Made by a program: the position numbers and the translations under genes. The notes under the pieces were generated by a model, which ran no database searches, was not told the origin of the DNA, and was given only the letters and a program-made list of their open reading frames with translations. DNA of 8,798 nucleotides, from contig JAGQJJ010000119.1 of assembly GCA_020430675.1 (NCBI GenBank), forward strand, positions 1-8,798. The letters are read 5' to 3'. Within the stretch, counting starts at the first letter, position 1, and each line of letters starts with the position of its first letter. The DNA is from Myxococcales bacterium (lineage in GTDB: Bacteria; Myxococcota; Bradymonadia; UBA7976; UBA1532). This document shows positions 1-7,009 of this stretch, one piece after another.

Positions 1-2483
1 TCGAGGCACCACTCCCAAACTGTGCCCGCCATCTCCTCGACGCCCCAAGGGCTGCGGCCGAGCGGATGCCGACCAACCAGTTCGAGACCCTGACCTCCGA
101 AGTTTGCCCGCTCAGCCTCCGGCAGCGCATCCCCCCACGGATACCGCCGGCCATCGCCGCCCCGCGCGGCGTATTCCCACTCGGCCTCGGTCGGCAGGTC
201 CGCCCGCCAGCCGGCCGGCACGGCAGCGGTCGTATTGAGCCAGTCGCAGAAGGCCCGGGCGTCTGCCCAGTTGACGCCGACCACTGGCTGCTTGGGCGCA
301 TTGAAGCGGCTGTTGCTCCACTCGGCGGGCGGTTCGCGCCCGGTCGCCTTCACGAAGACTCCATAGTCGGCGTTGGTCGTCGGGTGGCGGGCGATGCGAT
401 AGGCGGTCGGCATCTCCAGGCGGAAGGGCGGCAGCTCGTTGTCCCATGCCTCCGGGTCATGGACCGGGTGGCCCTTCTCGTTGGACGATCCCATCCAGAA
501 GGCGCCCGGCGCGATCTCGACCCACTCGATGCCCACCGGCGAGCCCGCCGGTCGCAAGAAGCGCCCTGGCCGATGCGCCTCGATGCCCACGGGCGCTGCG
601 ACCGCCGGATGGTCGGCCCACGCCTCGGCGGCGGCGGTGATGGTCGGCAGCGGCCGGTTGCGAAACAGCGAGAAGATCGCCGCCACCTCACGCAGATCGG
701 GGCCCCGCCCGAACCACGCCCGCCACCCCCGCGGGCGGCGCAGGGCGGGCAAAAACGGCGCGGGGTCGACCATCGGCGCGAGGCGGAAGCCCTCGTTGAG
801 CAGGTCGAGATGCGCGGCGACTTCGCCGCGACGCACGACGGCCTGCATCAACGGCTTGAAGACCCCCGGCATCGAGAAGGCGAGCAGGATGGCTTCGCGC
901 CAGAAGGCATCGCCCATGCCATCGACCAAGGCATCGTACAGATGTTCGTCGGCGGCATGGCTCGCCGCCAGGTACTCTTGAAATGACAGGTGCGGGAACT
1001 CATAGGTGTCGACATCGGTCCCGCTGAGCACGCCGCAGACCTCGCGGGCGGTGTCGAGGAAGTCCTGGGCGTCAAGCTGCAACTGCGGCATGCCGGCCAG
1101 CGGGCCCTCGACCACCGCGCGTGCCTCGGCGCCCGTGAAGGTCATCGGCCGGTCCTTGGGCCCGTCGCCCGCGGCCTGCTGGCGGTGCATGGCCCAGGCG
1201 AGCGGCTGCAAGACCAGCCGCGCCTGATCGACCGGCAGGCCGGCGTGGCCCTTCTCCTGGGCCCAGGTCTTGAGCAGAAAGCCCACGCACTCGTGGTACA
1301 GGCCGACACGGCGTTCAGGCAGCGCATCGCCCGCGTAGTGCACCAGACACAGCAGCGAGAGCAGCATCGGGTTCTGGGTCATCTGCCGCAGGCCGTAGAC
1401 CACCTGTCGCTCGGGGTCGAGCAGCGCGTCGAGCAGCGCCGCCGCGCGCTCTTGCGCCTCCTCGGCCTTCTCGGGCCGCACCATCAGCCCCAGATAGACC
1501 GCGCGATACCAGCGCGGCACGTACTCGCGCACGCGCTCTTCCGAGAGCCACTCGACCTCGGCCGGCAGAAAGTCATTGGCCAGGCGGCTCTCGCCACGCC
1601 AGGCCGCATACCGGCACGACGCGACAAAACATGCCTGCGGCCAACGGTGCACCTCTTCTTCCAGCCACCGACACACCGCGGCGCGCGTTGCGGCGTCGCG
1701 CACTTCGTCGAGGCCGTCGAGCAGAAACAACTGCCGCCCGCCGATCAGATCTTCAGCCGCATCGCCATGTCGCTTGCCTGCCACGCGGCGCACGAAGGCC
1801 GCCAGACCGTCCGAACGCCGGTCAGCCTCGGTCAGATCGGCGAACCGAAGAAAGACCGGCTGCAAGTCGGGCGGCAGGCCCACCGCCGCCGAGCCCTCGG
1901 CGCGCACGCGACAGAACAGGTGCTTGAGCAGCGTGGTCTTGCCCGCGCCCGGGTCGCCGATCAGGATCAGCCCGCGCTTGCCGGCCTCGACCATCAACGC
2001 CAGCGCGCCCGGCAACTCGACATGCGCATCGCGCATATGGCCGTCGACCTCGGGCCCAAAGCGCATCTTCTCCGCGCACGCCGGCCCCCAGAAGCCAACC
2101 CGGGTGCGCAGCTCGACAAAGACCTCATCGAGCGTCAGGTGCACCCGCTCCTGGCGCTGAAAGCCCAGGATCTTCACCCGCCGCAACAATCGCCATTGCT
2201 CATCGAGCCACGCCGCCAGCGGCCCCTCCGGCGCGTCGGTCACCGCCGTCGGCGGCGGCGCGGGCACGACATCCGGAAACTCGCGGTGCACGTACAGCTT
2301 GAGGCGATTGAGCGCCGCTGGCCCCTGCTCGGCCGCTTCGTTGATGATCTCGGCCCAGAAGACATCGGCGCCGTGATCGAAGCGCACCCGCCCGGTGGCG
2401 ATGCCTGCCTCATCGGCCACCATTCGTGCCTGCGCCGACGTGGGATACAGCGCTGCGCATTGCTCGCGGAAAGTCGCCCTCAT
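1..2483 (-). CDS. EAD1-like / NACHT NTPase / FGE-like protein (C-terminus off the left edge)
   Basis: I translated this by hand: the frame is open from the ATG at 2483 to the window edge, giving 827 visible residues. Residues 1-70 resemble an EAD1 effector-associated domain (LYPT at 12-15, an EAG(I) turn near 25-28, FW near 41-42, ending HREFPD). A proline-rich linker follows. The NACHT NTPase starts near 115; it has Walker A GDPGAGKTTLLK (176-187), Walker B LFLLDGLDE (252-260), SCR at 289-291 as a sensor-like strand, and the helical motif FPHLSFQEYLAA (496-507). After a helical linker, an FGE-like domain begins near 650 (FWMGSS, LPTEAEWEYAARG, WGVEEMAGTVWEWC); its last part, where RGGSW and GFR would lie, is outside the window. 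The start overlaps the upstream stop by 4 nt (ATGA), so translation is probably coupled. The expected role is an NTP-dependent switch in a conflict system; the trigger is unknown. Confidence 0.93.
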   Translation of the reverse strand, partial: MRATFREQCAALYPTSAQARMVADEAGIATGRVRFDHGADVFWAEIINEAAEQGPAALNRLKLYVHREFPDVVPAPPPTAVTDAPEGPLAAWLDEQWRLLRRVKILGFQRQERVHLTLDEVFVELRTRVGFWGPACAEKMRFGPEVDGHMRDAHVELPGALALMVEAGKRGLILIGDPGAGKTTLLKHLFCRVRAEGSAAVGLPPDLQPVFLRFADLTEADRRSDGLAAFVRRVAGKRHGDAAEDLIGGRQLFLLDGLDEVRDAATRAAVCRWLEEEVHRWPQACFVASCRYAAWRGESRLANDFLPAEVEWLSEERVREYVPRWYRAVYLGLMVRPEKAEEAQERAAALLDALLDPERQVVYGLRQMTQNPMLLSLLCLVHYAGDALPERRVGLYHECVGFLLKTWAQEKGHAGLPVDQARLVLQPLAWAMHRQQAAGDGPKDRPMTFTGAEARAVVEGPLAGMPQLQLDAQDFLDTAREVCGVLSGTDVDTYEFPHLSFQEYLAASHAADEHLYDALVDGMGDAFWREAILLAFSMPGVFKPLMQAVVRRGEVAAHLDLLNEGFRLAPMVDPAPFLPALRRPRGWRAWFGRGPDLREVAAIFSLFRNRPLPTITAAAEAWADHPAVAAPVGIEAHRPGRFLRPAGSPVGIEWVEIAPGAFWMGSSNEKGHPVHDPEAWDNELPPFRLEMPTAYRIARHPTTNADYGVFVKATGREPPAEWSNSRFNAPKQPVVGVNWADARAFCDWLNTTAAVPAGWRADLPTEAEWEYAARGGDGRRYPWGDALPEAERANFGGQGLELVGRHPLGRSPWGVEEMAGTVWEWCL
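6..530 (-). repeat. FGE-domain repeat, copy 2 (in the NACHT gene)
   Basis: This segment is a diverged DNA copy of 2702-3274. Both encode an FGE-like domain from IEW...APGAFWMGSS through GTVWEWC. By eye about 100 of the first 133 aligned residues are identical. The only length difference I see is a 16-residue stretch present in the CHAT-kinase copy and missing here, between PWG and GRHP. The copy continues beyond the window edge. Confidence 0.88.
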
Positions 2484-4960
2484 GCCTGACCGCCCGTGCG
2501 CCGACACACGACGCGAAAACCCAGATCAGCATCCCGTGGCTGGGTCAGCCACCAGTAGCGGCCGGCCGCGCGTTGGTGCACCGGATCGCTGGCCCACGAC
2601 CCACCGCGGATGACGCGCGGGGCGCTGATGTCATGGTCGACCATGGGTACGTCGGCAGGTGGCAGCAATGGCATCGGTCGCTTCTCCTGCCAGATGTCTC
2701 GGCACCATTCCCAGACCGTGCCGGCCATCTCTTCGACGCCCCAGGGGCTGCGGCCGGCCGGGTGGCGGCCCACGGGCAGCGGGCCGCTGGTCTGAAGGTG
2801 GGCCCGCCCCTTCTCCAGCGTCCAGCCGCCCGGTGGCGCGAAGTAGTCGGCGCGGGTGGCATCAGAGGGCGCGTTGCCCCAGGGATAGCGGCGTCCGACG
2901 CTGCCGCGGGCGGCGTACTCCCATTCGGCCTCGGTGGGCAGGTCTGCGCGCCAGCCATCCGGCACGGCGTCGGTGGTGTCGAGCCAGGCACAAAAGGCAT
3001 GCGCGTCCATCCAGTCGACGCCGACCACCGGTTGGTCGGGCGCGCTGAAGCGAGGGTTGCCCCACTCTTCTGGCGGCCGATGGCCCGTCGCCTTCAGGAA
3101 GGCGGCGAAGTCCGCGTTGGTGGTCGGGTGCCGCGCGATGCGGAAGCCCGCGGGCATCTCCAGACGCAGCGGCGGCAACTCGTCGTCGAACGCTTCGGGG
3201 TCAAAGGTCGCGTGGCCTTGCTCATGGGATGAGCCCATCCAAAAGGCGCCCGGTGCGATGTGAATCCACTCGATGGCAATCGCTGTTTGTGTCAGCCGGG
3301 GCGCGCTCGCCGGTTCGATCGCTCGCTCTGCCTGCACCGCCCGACGAAGCGCCTCGGCGAACGCCCGGGCGGAAGCGTGGCGCGCGTCGGGCTCCCAGGC
3401 GATCGCGCGAAGCACCTCGGCCTTGAGCGTGGCCCATCCTGCGACGTCGGCCAACTCGCCGGCCGGGTCGCGAAGCACGCGCTGCCTGAGCGCCGCGCCC
3501 TTGAGGGCAAAGAGCGCAGTCATGCCCAAGCCATAGACATCGCATGCGGGCCCGACCGAACCCGCGGCCTCCATCGCTTCGGGGGCCGCGTAGAGGAAGG
3601 TGCCGAGCGCGCCTGTCCGGGTGCCGCCGGTGGTGTCGCCCGCGCGCACGAGGTCGAAGTCGGTCAGCAGCGCGCCGCCGGTGCCATCGAGCAGGATGTT
3701 CGATGGCTTCACGTCGCGGTGCACGATGCCTTGTTGATGGGCTGCAAAGAGCGCGTCGGCCACCTGGCAGGTCACGTCGACCGCCCCTTCGGTCGAGATG
3801 CGTCCGCCGAGCACTGCCTGTTCGAGATCACCGCCCGCGGCGTAGGCCATCACGAAGAAGGACCATGCGTCGTCGTGGCCCTCCGCTTCGATGATGCGGG
3901 CCACATGCGGGTGGCCGATCTGCTGCATCTGGCGTGCCCCGCGGAAGAACCGCTGGCGACGCTCGGCGCTGTCACTGAACTGCCCGTGCAGCAGCTTGAC
4001 GGCGACGGTCTCATCGGTGGCGGCGTCCCAGGCCTGCCAGACCTCGGCGAAGCCGCCGCGGCCGAGCAGGTTGATCAGATGCCAGCGGTCGGACAGCACC
4101 AGCCCGGCGCTCGGGCGGTTGCCGTGCAATGCCTTGCGCTTGAGGTCGAGGATGCGCTGGTCGAGGCCGGCGAGCACGGCGGCGGGCGCGCCGGCGTCGG
4201 CGAGGGCTTTGCGTTTGGCGAGGGCGGCCTCCAGCGGGGTCGGCTCGGTCTTGGGCGCCTCGGCGTCGGCCACCAGCTTCCACGCGGCGTTGGTCGAGCC
4301 GGCCTGGCGCAGAATCCACGGCCAATGCGTCTGGCTGCGCAGGGGCACCAGCATGCGGAAGAAGCCATCGGCGGGCTCGCCTTCGCGTACCAGCGCGGCG
4401 GGTGTCTGCACGCGCGAGCGCTCGTCGCCCTCGGCCAGCGCAAAGGCCTGCGCCAGCGGGTGGCCCTGGGCCAGCGCAAAATAGAAGCGCCGCGCAAAGC
4501 GGGCGGCGACGTCGTCGCGGATGGCGCGCTCGGTCGCGATCACGGTGGCCACGCCCGCGTCGTGCAGCGCCGCGACATGGGCGGCGGTGGCGCAGCCGTT
4601 GAGGAAGACAAAACGCAGGTCGCGCAGCCCGCGCAGGGCGGCGGCGATGCCCTCAACCAAGGCGGCGGCCGGGCGGCCGAGGGCGTCCTCGAACTTCAGC
4701 CCCTCGGGGTCGGCGTGGCCGCCGAAGTGTATGCCGATGAGGCGGTCGCCATGGGTGGCGAGCTTGTCGAAGAAGGCGTCGTGCGTGACGTTGTCTTCGA
4801 AGACCAATTGGCAGCGGCCCTGCGCCGCCGCGGGCGCCAGCGCGGCTTCGATCGCGCGCCGCTCGGGCGCCAGGTTGCGCAACCATCGCGCGTCGCCCCC
4901 ATGCCGATCGTTGGCGAAGGCGAGCAAGATGACCGGCGGCGTGGCTGGGGGCGCGGGCAT
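2480..4960 (-). CDS. CHAT protease / Ser-Thr kinase / FGE-like protein
   Basis: The product is 826 aa. The N-terminal CHAT (caspase-like) domain, about 8-210, has HFGGHAD with candidate catalytic His82 and FLNGCATA with Cys123. The kinase domain, about 290-545, has the glycine loop GRGGFAEVW (300-308), VAVK with Lys322, HRDVKPSN with Asp416, an APE motif at 459-461 and a DVYGLG helix. Two oddities: DFG reads DFD (434-436), and the usual alpha-C glutamate appears to be Gly341. The FGE-like domain, about 560-826, runs from FWMGSS to RGGSW and ends LGFRVVCRR; the cysteine pair of true formylglycine-generating enzymes is absent. I chose ATG 4960 over the in-frame ATG at 5080 because a strong promoter (4992-5020) lies between them and GGGAG sits 10 nt upstream of 4960. 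It is the first gene of a two-gene operon, probably cytoplasmic. The role is inferred as protease/kinase signalling in a NACHT-linked conflict system. Confidence 0.94.
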   Translation of the reverse strand: MPAPPATPPVILLAFANDRHGGDARWLRNLAPERRAIEAALAPAAAQGRCQLVFEDNVTHDAFFDKLATHGDRLIGIHFGGHADPEGLKFEDALGRPAAALVEGIAAALRGLRDLRFVFLNGCATAAHVAALHDAGVATVIATERAIRDDVAARFARRFYFALAQGHPLAQAFALAEGDERSRVQTPAALVREGEPADGFFRMLVPLRSQTHWPWILRQAGSTNAAWKLVADAEAPKTEPTPLEAALAKRKALADAGAPAAVLAGLDQRILDLKRKALHGNRPSAGLVLSDRWHLINLLGRGGFAEVWQAWDAATDETVAVKLLHGQFSDSAERRQRFFRGARQMQQIGHPHVARIIEAEGHDDAWSFFVMAYAAGGDLEQAVLGGRISTEGAVDVTCQVADALFAAHQQGIVHRDVKPSNILLDGTGGALLTDFDLVRAGDTTGGTRTGALGTFLYAAPEAMEAAGSVGPACDVYGLGMTALFALKGAALRQRVLRDPAGELADVAGWATLKAEVLRAIAWEPDARHASARAFAEALRRAVQAERAIEPASAPRLTQTAIAIEWIHIAPGAFWMGSSHEQGHATFDPEAFDDELPPLRLEMPAGFRIARHPTTNADFAAFLKATGHRPPEEWGNPRFSAPDQPVVGVDWMDAHAFCAWLDTTDAVPDGWRADLPTEAEWEYAARGSVGRRYPWGNAPSDATRADYFAPPGGWTLEKGRAHLQTSGPLPVGRHPAGRSPWGVEEMAGTVWEWCRDIWQEKRPMPLLPPADVPMVDHDISAPRVIRGGSWASDPVHQRAAGRYWWLTQPRDADLGFRVVCRRTGGQA
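2702..3274 (-). repeat. FGE-domain repeat, copy 1 (in the CHAT-kinase gene)
   Basis: This is the partner of 6-530. It carries 48 extra bases encoding a loop with APPGGW and LEKGRAHL. The domain continues to 2480 with the RGGSW...GFRV end, whose counterpart in copy 2 is outside the window. Same-orientation tandem copies in one operon suggest domain duplication between neighbouring genes or domain capture. Confidence 0.88.
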
Positions 4961-5881: not shown

Positions 5882-7009
5882 CTACTTCAGGCCCGCGGCG
5901 TCGAGCCGGTTGATGAAGCTGCGCTTGCGGGCGTGATTGCGGCGAAGTGCGGCCAGGCGGCCGGCGAACTCGAAGTCGGCGCCGGCCCGGGCAGCCAGAT
6001 CGCGCAGGTCGATCAGGTGGGCGGTGGCCTCGTCGTAGGCGCGCGGGGTGGTCGAGAAGAGCAGCGAGCGCACTTTGAGCCAGAGCGTGCTCTCTTGCCC
6101 GGCCAGCAGGTCCAGGTGCCGGGCGCGCGCAGCGGTTGCGGCGGCTTCGCGTTGCCGCCGTGCTTCGGCCGCGCGTCGGGCGCTCTGCTCGGCGGCGATG
6201 GCGCGCAGCTCAGTGGCACGATCGAAGAGCTGGCGCACGGTGCGCGGCGGCGGTGCTGCCGGGCGGGCGCTGCCTTGCGCGGCGCGGAAGCGTCGGCCCA
6301 GCGCGCTGGCCACGGCGGCGTGCTGGCCCTGCGCGACGCGAAGCAGCAGGGCGTCCTTCTCGGCGGCGGACAGCGCGCCGATCCACTCGGCCAGCGCCGC
6401 CGTTTCGAGCGTATCCGACGGGCTGCCTTCCGCGGCGGCGGCGACCAGGTGTTCGTCAACCCAAAGGAACCGGGCCAACGCTTCAAGTGCCGCCGGCAGC
6501 GTTGCCAGACCCGGCGGCACCGGCGGTTCAACCTCATCTCGGGCTTCGCCATCGAGCGAAGCCAGCCACCCGAGGTAGAGCGGCCGCCGGTCGCCCGCCA
6601 GCAGGGCGGTGCGCACGCCGGTCAGGGCTGACATCCATCCCTCGCCGGTGTCCCACTCGCGGAACTCTTCGAGCGCGCGGCCCAGTTCGACGATGACATG
6701 GTCGCCCGACTCAACGATGCGGAGGACTTCATCGGCGCGATACCCCTGCACCGCATCACGGTCGATCGCCTCGCGCGGCAGCCGCAGCGCGAGCTGTCGG
6801 ACGCACCCCATGGCCACATAGACATGCACATCGAAGAACCGCGCCAGCAGCTTCAGCGGGTCGGCCTTGAGGTCGCCGAAGCTGTAGTGGTTGGCAAACC
6901 GCGTCGTCGTGATCTCAGCGCGGGTCGAGATGGCCCGCAGCGTCTGCATTTGCGCCTCGGTCAGCGGATGGTCGACCGCCAGGAACTCATAGTACTGGTA
7001 CTCACTCAT
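5882..7009 (-). CDS. MSEYQYYEF-family conserved protein of unknown function
   Basis: The product is 375 aa. The N-terminus (MSEYQYYEFLAVDHPLTEAQ, then RITTRFANHYSFGDLK-like text at about 30-48, and DPLKLLARFFD) belongs to a family I recall as widespread in bacteria with no assigned reaction. The middle (about 95-240) is helical and includes EEFREWDTGEGWMSALTGVR. Residues 255-305 are Ala/Arg/Glu-rich and probably coiled coil. The C-terminus (YDEATAHLIDLRDLA and ending INRLDAAGLK) is also typical of the family. The frame stays open upstream to 7582, but ATG 7009 is the start: it begins the conserved sequence, has AAGGA 11 nt upstream, and the promoter at 7088-7116 would lie inside any longer version. 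The start overlaps a 16-codon leader ORF by ATGA. Its promoter is a near copy of the CHAT operon's, implying co-regulation. Confidence 0.88.
   Translation of the reverse strand: MSEYQYYEFLAVDHPLTEAQMQTLRAISTRAEITTTRFANHYSFGDLKADPLKLLARFFDVHVYVAMGCVRQLALRLPREAIDRDAVQGYRADEVLRIVESGDHVIVELGRALEEFREWDTGEGWMSALTGVRTALLAGDRRPLYLGWLASLDGEARDEVEPPVPPGLATLPAALEALARFLWVDEHLVAAAAEGSPSDTLETAALAEWIGALSAAEKDALLLRVAQGQHAAVASALGRRFRAAQGSARPAAPPPRTVRQLFDRATELRAIAAEQSARRAAEARRQREAAATAARARHLDLLAGQESTLWLKVRSLLFSTTPRAYDEATAHLIDLRDLAARAGADFEFAGRLAALRRNHARKRSFINRLDAAGLK

Follow-up and report, generated by a model that had tools for sequence, protein, structure and literature searches.

How would a bacterial receptor of the NACHT type be wired to an effector in which no copy of the receptor's adaptor is detected? 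This question is raised by an 8,798-nucleotide stretch from a Myxococcales bacterium (apparently the whole of contig JAGQJJ010000119.1; the stretch in full is called the window), in which two neighbouring genes encode a CHAT-kinase-FGE protein (gene A) and an EAD1-NACHT-FGE protein (gene B). On balance, we favour a two-gene receptor-effector system of the STAND (signal transduction ATPases with numerous domains)-FGE conflict class, similar to the animal NLRs (nucleotide-binding leucine-rich repeat receptors), whose effector would be recruited via its sensor and activated by clustering. The locus is real and well formed, and belongs to a putative immune class already known; what is new is the effector wiring, in that the partner bears the sensor of the receptor and no adaptor was detected on it.

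Domain organization of genes A and B

The original prediction, made from the sequence alone, described a coupled CHAT-kinase-FGE and EAD1-NACHT-FGE locus forming one operon. Both points held: profile searches find all five domain types, EAD1 just below its cut-off, and the genes overlap by ATGA on the minus strand (Table 1). Cys123, Asp416 (HRD motif) and Lys182 (P-loop) had also been correctly named, and the catalytic residues are intact.

Table 1. Features of the two-gene locus, in window positions
Feature	Positions	Strand	Evidence
Gene A, CHAT-kinase-FGE, 826 aa	2480..4960	-	ORF (open reading frame); Pfam; AlphaFold2 pLDDT 83.8
Gene B, EAD1-NACHT-FGE, 827 aa within the window, 3' end beyond the contig	3..2483	-	ORF; Pfam; homologues 47-53%; model pLDDT 89
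ATGA overlap, gene A stop/gene B start	2480..2483	-	Sequence
CHAT domain, gene A residues 37-177, His82 and Cys123	4430..4852	-	Pfam; PDB 8tl0; motifs
Protein kinase domain, gene A residues 293-489	3494..4084	-	
FGE-like sensor domain, gene A residues 563-817	2510..3274	-	
Gene A segment matching the DGR (diversity-generating retroelement) variable region of relatives, residues 785-816	2513..2608	-	Alignment; aligns with 2y3c
EAD1 adaptor, gene B residues 4-61	2301..2474	-	Pfam below cut-off; four helices in model
NACHT NTPase, gene B residues 172-327, P-loop Lys182, DGLDE 256-260	1503..1970	-	Pfam; invariant columns
FGE-like sensor, gene B residues 653-826, ends ahead of the variable region	6..527	-	Pfam

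Gene B was searched at the protein level, and the best 120 of 766 matches, query included, were considered. Among the matches listed, seven are near-full-length homologues (P0125-P0131), 47-52% identical over 98-100%. The EAD1 match of gene B itself scores 22.6 bits with Pfam (cut-off 24.2); since five of these seven homologues carry a precomputed EAD1 call (P0125 and P0127-P0130, not P0126 or P0131) and the predicted model places four helices across the region, we accept EAD1 at the family level. The NACHT (E 8.6e-13) and FGE-sulfatase (E 5e-32) matches are clear, and Lys182 and DGLDE are invariant across alignment A1. The predicted fold is NLR-like, with structural matches to NLRP3, NOD2 and NLRC4 at 15-17% identity, and the best PADLOC match has an E-value of 0.0056. 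The fold-search lists were filled by kinase, FGE and NACHT structures, so that CHAT and EAD1 were hardly probed in this way. Together with the published class, this predicted fold agrees with the original view of the domains as building blocks of conflict systems.

In gene A, CHAT is well above its cut-off (E 2.9e-9; 37.2 bits, cut-off 24), matches the CHAT chain of PDB 8tl0 (E 1.8e-5) and retains the His-Cys dyad in GGH82 and NGC123 (LNGC). Apart from that of gene B, profile searches detected no EAD1 in the 8.8 kb, gene A included, the contig ending within gene B.

The kinase of gene A

The kinase match of gene A is strong (E 3.6e-33), and its catalytic residues K322, D416, N421 and D434 are accompanied by two departures from the usual motifs: Gly341 at the alpha-C Glu position and DFD at 434-436. 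For comparison, 59 other kinase rows were selected from the 120 matches listed of 1,913 gene A matches (alignment A2), four CHAT-NACHT-FGE rows being excluded from the count. In 60/60 rows the VAVK Lys, HRD Asp, Asn and metal-binding Asp are retained, and in 60/60 the alpha-C Glu position is Gly and the DFG Gly is Asp (Asp436 in gene A). PknA, the alignment of which fixes the alpha-C Glu position, has Glu and DFG at the matching places. Judged by these motifs, the gene A kinase is a divergent, not a canonical, Hanks-type kinase. Mnk kinases are described as having a DFD motif too, with a resting 'out' state that blocks the ATP site (available text of PMC3326643 and PMC1821047). By analogy with them, DFD and the missing alpha-C Glu suggest that the gene A kinase is latched and needs clustering or a partner; the combination marks the group as an unusual, probably latched, bacterial kinase.

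The same two losses could be read otherwise, with gene A as a decoy or bait whose FGE copy presents the sensor to the trigger of gene B and whose kinase is catalytically poor. A hard-to-activate enzyme is indeed what DFD and loss of the alpha-C Glu in all 60 rows resemble, given how DFD blocks the ATP site in Mnk (as available in PMC3326643); however, the Lys, HRD Asp, Asn and metal Asp kept in every row, together with the intact CHAT His and Cys, argue for selection on catalysis, and we regard a decoy as highly improbable.

The kinase also matches known defence kinases. Against the best PADLOC PD-T4-6 model it scores 188.7 bits (E 4e-56, residues 291-560), with no curated cut-off, and against the NCBIfam defence kinase MAD6 127.4 bits, under the curated cut-off of 460. 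Since kinases cross-match, nothing firm follows from either score, which may reflect general kinase likeness.

A sensor domain shared between the two proteins

The original prediction had noticed that the FGE domains of the two genes are closely related. The FGE-sulfatase domain of gene A (PF03781, E 1.2e-47) is 65% identical to that of gene B over 208 columns; at the DNA level identity is 76% over 407 bases and rises to 84% over the 73 bases closest to the window edge. The two pair as sisters (support 100/99) in a tree built from 112 FGE domains, joined by the FGE of the NACHT-type homologue P0126 (96/92). The remainder of the two proteins is unrelated.

Kinase-borne and NACHT-borne domains interchange across the tree, which requires 10 changes between the two kinds of carrier, at least 8 of them forced, and in which a single clade for kinase FGEs is rejected (p 1.1e-5; the long row P0170 left out, and four CHAT-NACHT-FGE rows not classed as kinase). 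On account of these changes, FGE sensors look like portable modules. The closest CHAT-kinase relative of gene A among the matches listed, P0006 (58% over 66%), has PF08308, which we take to be PEGA, and no FGE call; in a separate FGE tree, the FGEs of the CHAT-kinase-FGE homologues P0007 and P0026 fall in another clade than that of gene A. Hence gene A resembles a CHAT-kinase chassis given a sensor of the gene B type. As read from these sequences, receptor and effector have one sensor cassette in common, by sharing or by copying.

We also considered that these domains might be sulfatase-activating (formylglycine-generating) enzymes. The catalytic Cys pair of this enzyme is C336/C341 in human FGE, and the title of PDB 2afy names a C341S mutant of FGE. 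CxxxxC is present in 0/61 family rows, at least one Cys in 20/61, and no Cys lies in gene A residues 785-816, the segment in which the pair would sit; with no catalytic Cys pair, this role was rejected. The same segment (RGGSW...GFR) fits the variable-region pattern when compared with 60 other family rows, and aligns with the Treponema variable protein 2y3c.

Exchange of FGE domains may also be seen between close homologues of gene B. P0125 and P0127 are 95-96% identical over residues 1-560, 74% in the linker, 72% in the visible part of FGE and 62% over the final 71 residues. Because the drop spans the whole FGE domain, beyond what a DGR alone would reach, it suggests domain exchange besides DGR activity.

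A model of recruitment through the sensor

In the system that we favour, gene B would be the receptor. Its FGE/C-type-lectin-like tip would bind an invader-derived or non-self molecule, upon which the NACHT module would exchange nucleotide and oligomerise, and EAD1 would recruit partners. Gene A would be the executioner, its CHAT protease and latched kinase restrained as long as they are not clustered. Since no EAD1 was detected in gene A, which nevertheless carries a sister of the gene B sensor, we propose that gene A joins the NACHT assembly via a shared ligand or FGE-FGE contact and not by adaptor pairing. Clustering would then activate CHAT proteolysis and kinase signalling, and the cell would stop or die. 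If true, this would be an NLR-like receptor wired to its effector by a common sensor, and it would become testable whether bacterial hypervariable FGE domains really sense antigens.

A more specific version, in which the coupling sensor diversifies jointly, seems doubtful to us. Here the FGE would have been copied from B to A, conversion or a single DGR template acting on both would keep the copies similar, and one bridging ligand would license killing. Such a sensor, held with the same doubt, could be a bacterial analogue of two-receptor co-stimulation.

A homologue of gene B is a DGR target

Gene B falls into a published class of STAND/NACHT proteins whose C-terminal sensors, of the FGE (C-type-lectin-like) kind, are often DGR-diversified. 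The homologue in genome G222, probably a Myxococcota genome, is 48% identical and located at the end of contig C121. A template for its variable region lies in contig C124 of the same genome, next to genes for bAvd (40.5 bits against a cut-off of 40) and for a reverse transcriptase (32.8 bits against 29.6). Variable region and template differ at 16/25 adenines and at 4/123 other bases (Fisher p 7e-12): this homologue is a DGR target. C124 also holds an EAD1-TIR gene and a second EAD1-NACHT-FGE gene, the variable region of which differs at 15/28 adenines and 6/130 other bases. On contig C93, convergent TIR-NACHT-FGE and NACHT-FGE genes enclose a reverse transcriptase and a template, from which their variable regions differ at 19/26 and 11/26 adenines, and at 5/116 other bases each.

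In genome G270 a second NACHT-FGE gene (EAD1 weak, 17.8 bits) faces the gene B homologue in convergent orientation and itself overlaps a TIR-EAD1 gene by four bases. The two variable regions are 90.7% identical, with differences distributed 8/4/2 over the codon positions, mostly at the first and second; no reverse transcriptase was called between these two genes. G270 also has multicopy kinase-FGE genes of the gene A type in which TIR replaces CHAT. Two of their variable regions differ 8/7/2 by codon position, and one such gene adjoins another whose reverse-transcriptase match, at 25.6 bits, stays below the cut-off of 29.6.

Similar variable regions were seen at eight places in G270 (L137 7113-9647, L138, L139, L174, L178, L180, L182 and L184); the three that were read (L137, L138 and L139) are TIR-kinase-FGE genes. 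By sequence look only, two small PIN-like/antitoxin-like genes adjoin the G270 gene B homologue (L132 12764-13798, minus strand).

Neighbourhoods of NACHT-FGE genes

The survey covered 88 loci: 80 from a contig scan (the best 80 of 153, at most 39% identical), 56 of them with a NACHT-FGE gene, and eight hand-picked, seven with one. Of the resulting 63 NACHT-FGE loci, 16 are shorter than 8 kb, so the counts are lower bounds. Three hand-picked loci were chosen for a known reverse transcriptase, and theirs were among the four sequences behind the reverse-transcriptase model of the survey; the scan loci alone therefore give the fair count for this gene, 11/56 (13/63 overall). A second FGE gene occurs in 17/63 loci (14/56 from the scan) and a TIR match in 9/63 (5/56). 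CHAT was matched in 3/63 (all among the 56 scan loci: L009, L010 and L012), the CHAT ORF lying just downstream and overlapping. The recurring arrangement is a NACHT-FGE gene next to some effector gene.

A gene with both kinase and FGE was found in 2/63 loci (2/56 of the scan), namely L070, with kinase-NACHT-FGE, and L074, where a kinase-FGE gene with a DFG-type kinase lies directly upstream of the NACHT-FGE gene. This rarity would suit two separate receptors in one operon, A a ligand-gated kinase-protease and B signalling to an EAD1 effector elsewhere, so that expression is common and the pathway is not. In the same sense, TIR-EAD1 or EAD1-TIR genes lie close to EAD1-NACHT-FGE genes in relatives G222 and G270 (L132, L136), and kinase-like domains are reported to be the commonest in cyanobacterial DGR targets, with a C-type-lectin-like (CLec) domain proposed to be autoinhibitory and ligand-gated (available text of PMC7517822). 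However, the ATGA overlap and the sister FGEs link A to B, and we consider two independent pathways unlikely, if the most serious of the alternatives.

At L070 (8987-18838, Anaerolineae), TIR-NACHT-FGE and kinase-NACHT-FGE genes were observed on one strand, with similar C-termini.

Relatives and distribution

Gene B has matches at E 1e-60 or lower in seven of 377 genomes taken from the phylum of G001 (a Myxococcota bacterium, the source of L001); G270 (53%, full length) and G222 (48%) come first. At E 1e-80, gene B is matched in 1/16 genomes of G270's order. In the 210 genomes of G004's order, at E 1e-50, gene A is matched in four, the best matches covering parts at 44-48%, and gene B in two, at 36%. 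The CHAT part of gene A has matches in 5/377 genomes, at most six candidates being scored per genome; four of the five (G425, G339, G382 and G415, not G576) are among the 16 of G270's order. A kinase in the same ORF was present in 0/10 CHAT ORFs fetched, some of them cut by the fetched stretch. The complete gene A architecture is found in P0007, P0026, P0078 and P0115 among the matches listed, and, cut short, at L081 of Chromatiaceae ppb02.

The closest genomes found belong to the Myxococcota-MAG (metagenome-assembled genome) phylum, as would suit an aggregating bacterium in which variable sensors tell lineages apart, that is, kin/self recognition or developmental signalling in place of phage defence. 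Kin recognition is raised as an alternative for such targets in the available text of Dore et al. 2024 (PMC10907252). Nothing sequence-based separates it from immunity; the executioner-type CHAT with NACHT argues for cell death, which is compatible with both. We judge this function decidedly improbable.

A plasmid or phage origin was unsupported: gene A has one plasmid match (Thiodictyon, E 1e-30), covering residues 554-818 only, and was not searched in phages, and gene B has no match in plasmids (E 1e-30) or phages (E 1e-20), viral contigs not being part of the scan.

Genome G425 was seen to have six copies of the gene A CHAT family (L145, L150-L154; 44-53%). No kinase shares an ORF with any of the six; L152 and L153 terminate in FGE, and next to L151 lies a divergent kinase gene. 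Among P0246, P0023 and P0071 there are a CHAT-like part joined to NACHT-FGE, a TIR-kinase-FGE protein, and a TIR-kinase protein bearing FHA-type calls, a hint that effectors are shuffled within one genome.

Evidence against a coupled immune pair

Several results weigh against the receptor-effector system that we favour. A CHAT-kinase-FGE gene is present in 0/63 surveyed NACHT-FGE loci, many of them short, so the exact pair did not show the conserved co-occurrence looked for under the original prediction. That the pair is 'self-contained', as also claimed, is doubtful: the window offers no EAD1 partner for that of gene B. Gene conversion might account for the sister FGEs, which would then play no part in coupling.

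Diversification is likewise less clear here than in relatives. The contig end cuts gene B inside its FGE domain, upstream of the expected variable segment, which lies beyond the contig, and neither reverse transcriptase nor template is present within the window; diversification in this genome is therefore unproven. No template for the variable region of the G270 gene B homologue was found in that assembly. Compared with templates of relatives, the gene A segment differs at 17/22 and 18/23 adenines and at 27/74 and 24/73 non-adenines. It shows no readable mutagenesis signature, with 18/44 differences at third codon positions; as these differ at least as often as first positions, the pattern reflects divergence.

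Finally, no Pfam or NCBIfam family was found at E 1 in the four other window proteins scanned, save one weak sub-threshold Pfam match, and PADLOC gave no match for the one other window protein scanned; no defence island is therefore shown. The immune reading of the original prediction, which had overlooked the DGR-type FGE tip and the DGR-target homologue, thus keeps the class and the predicted fold on its side and loses the co-occurrence of the exact pair.

A 375-aa protein at 5882-7009 (minus strand), beginning MSEYQYYEFLAVD, was noted in the flank; its C-terminal 339 residues have no Pfam, NCBIfam or PADLOC family, and it has matches in 2/16 genomes of G270's order, the full-length one (34%) in G290. 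Four of eight gene B matches (L095, L098, L099 and L100) stop at most 300 bases from a contig end, like the window, and assemblies here may be broken by variable or repeated regions.

Comparison with known systems

Animal NLRs end in C-terminal leucine-rich repeats. Unlike NLRP3, NOD2 and NLRC4, with which it shares the low identity given above, gene B has FGE at its C-terminus. With the PD-T4-6 antiphage kinases, the likeness concerns the gene A kinase only, CHAT and FGE being outside the match.

The nearest published systems are the EAD1-STAND-FGS proteins of Kaur et al. 2021 (PMC8195603), for which the available text reports a DGR link, an invader-sensing idea and kinase, TIR and caspase effectors. 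The locus shares with these STAND NTPase-FGS/EAD systems an EAD1/effector domain, a NACHT/nSTAND core, a C-terminal FGS/FGE and, judging by relatives, the DGR association. Whereas EAD copies are described there as linking NTPase and effectors, the effector here has no detected EAD and an FGE of its own, sister to that of the receptor.

Dore et al. 2024 (PMC10907252) report NACHT and CLec DGR targets, with antigen sensing proposed. The Thiohalocapsa PB-PSB1 targets resemble our locus in being NACHT-CLec, often two per DGR in one clade, with CHAT and Pkinase in the domain key; in contrast, the available text was not found to describe a CHAT-kinase-FGE and EAD1-NACHT-FGE operon, and our window shows no DGR.

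In the part available of Vallota-Eastman et al. 2020 (PMC7517822), kinase-CLec proteins are DGR targets in cyanobacteria. Accessible passages of the open-access literature gave no description of the gene pair or of a sensor shared by NACHT and CHAT-kinase proteins. Gene A resembles these cyanobacterial proteins in joining a Ser/Thr kinase to a C-terminal CLec domain of the DGR type; unlike them, as far as they are described there, it adds an N-terminal CHAT and overlaps a NACHT-FGE gene.

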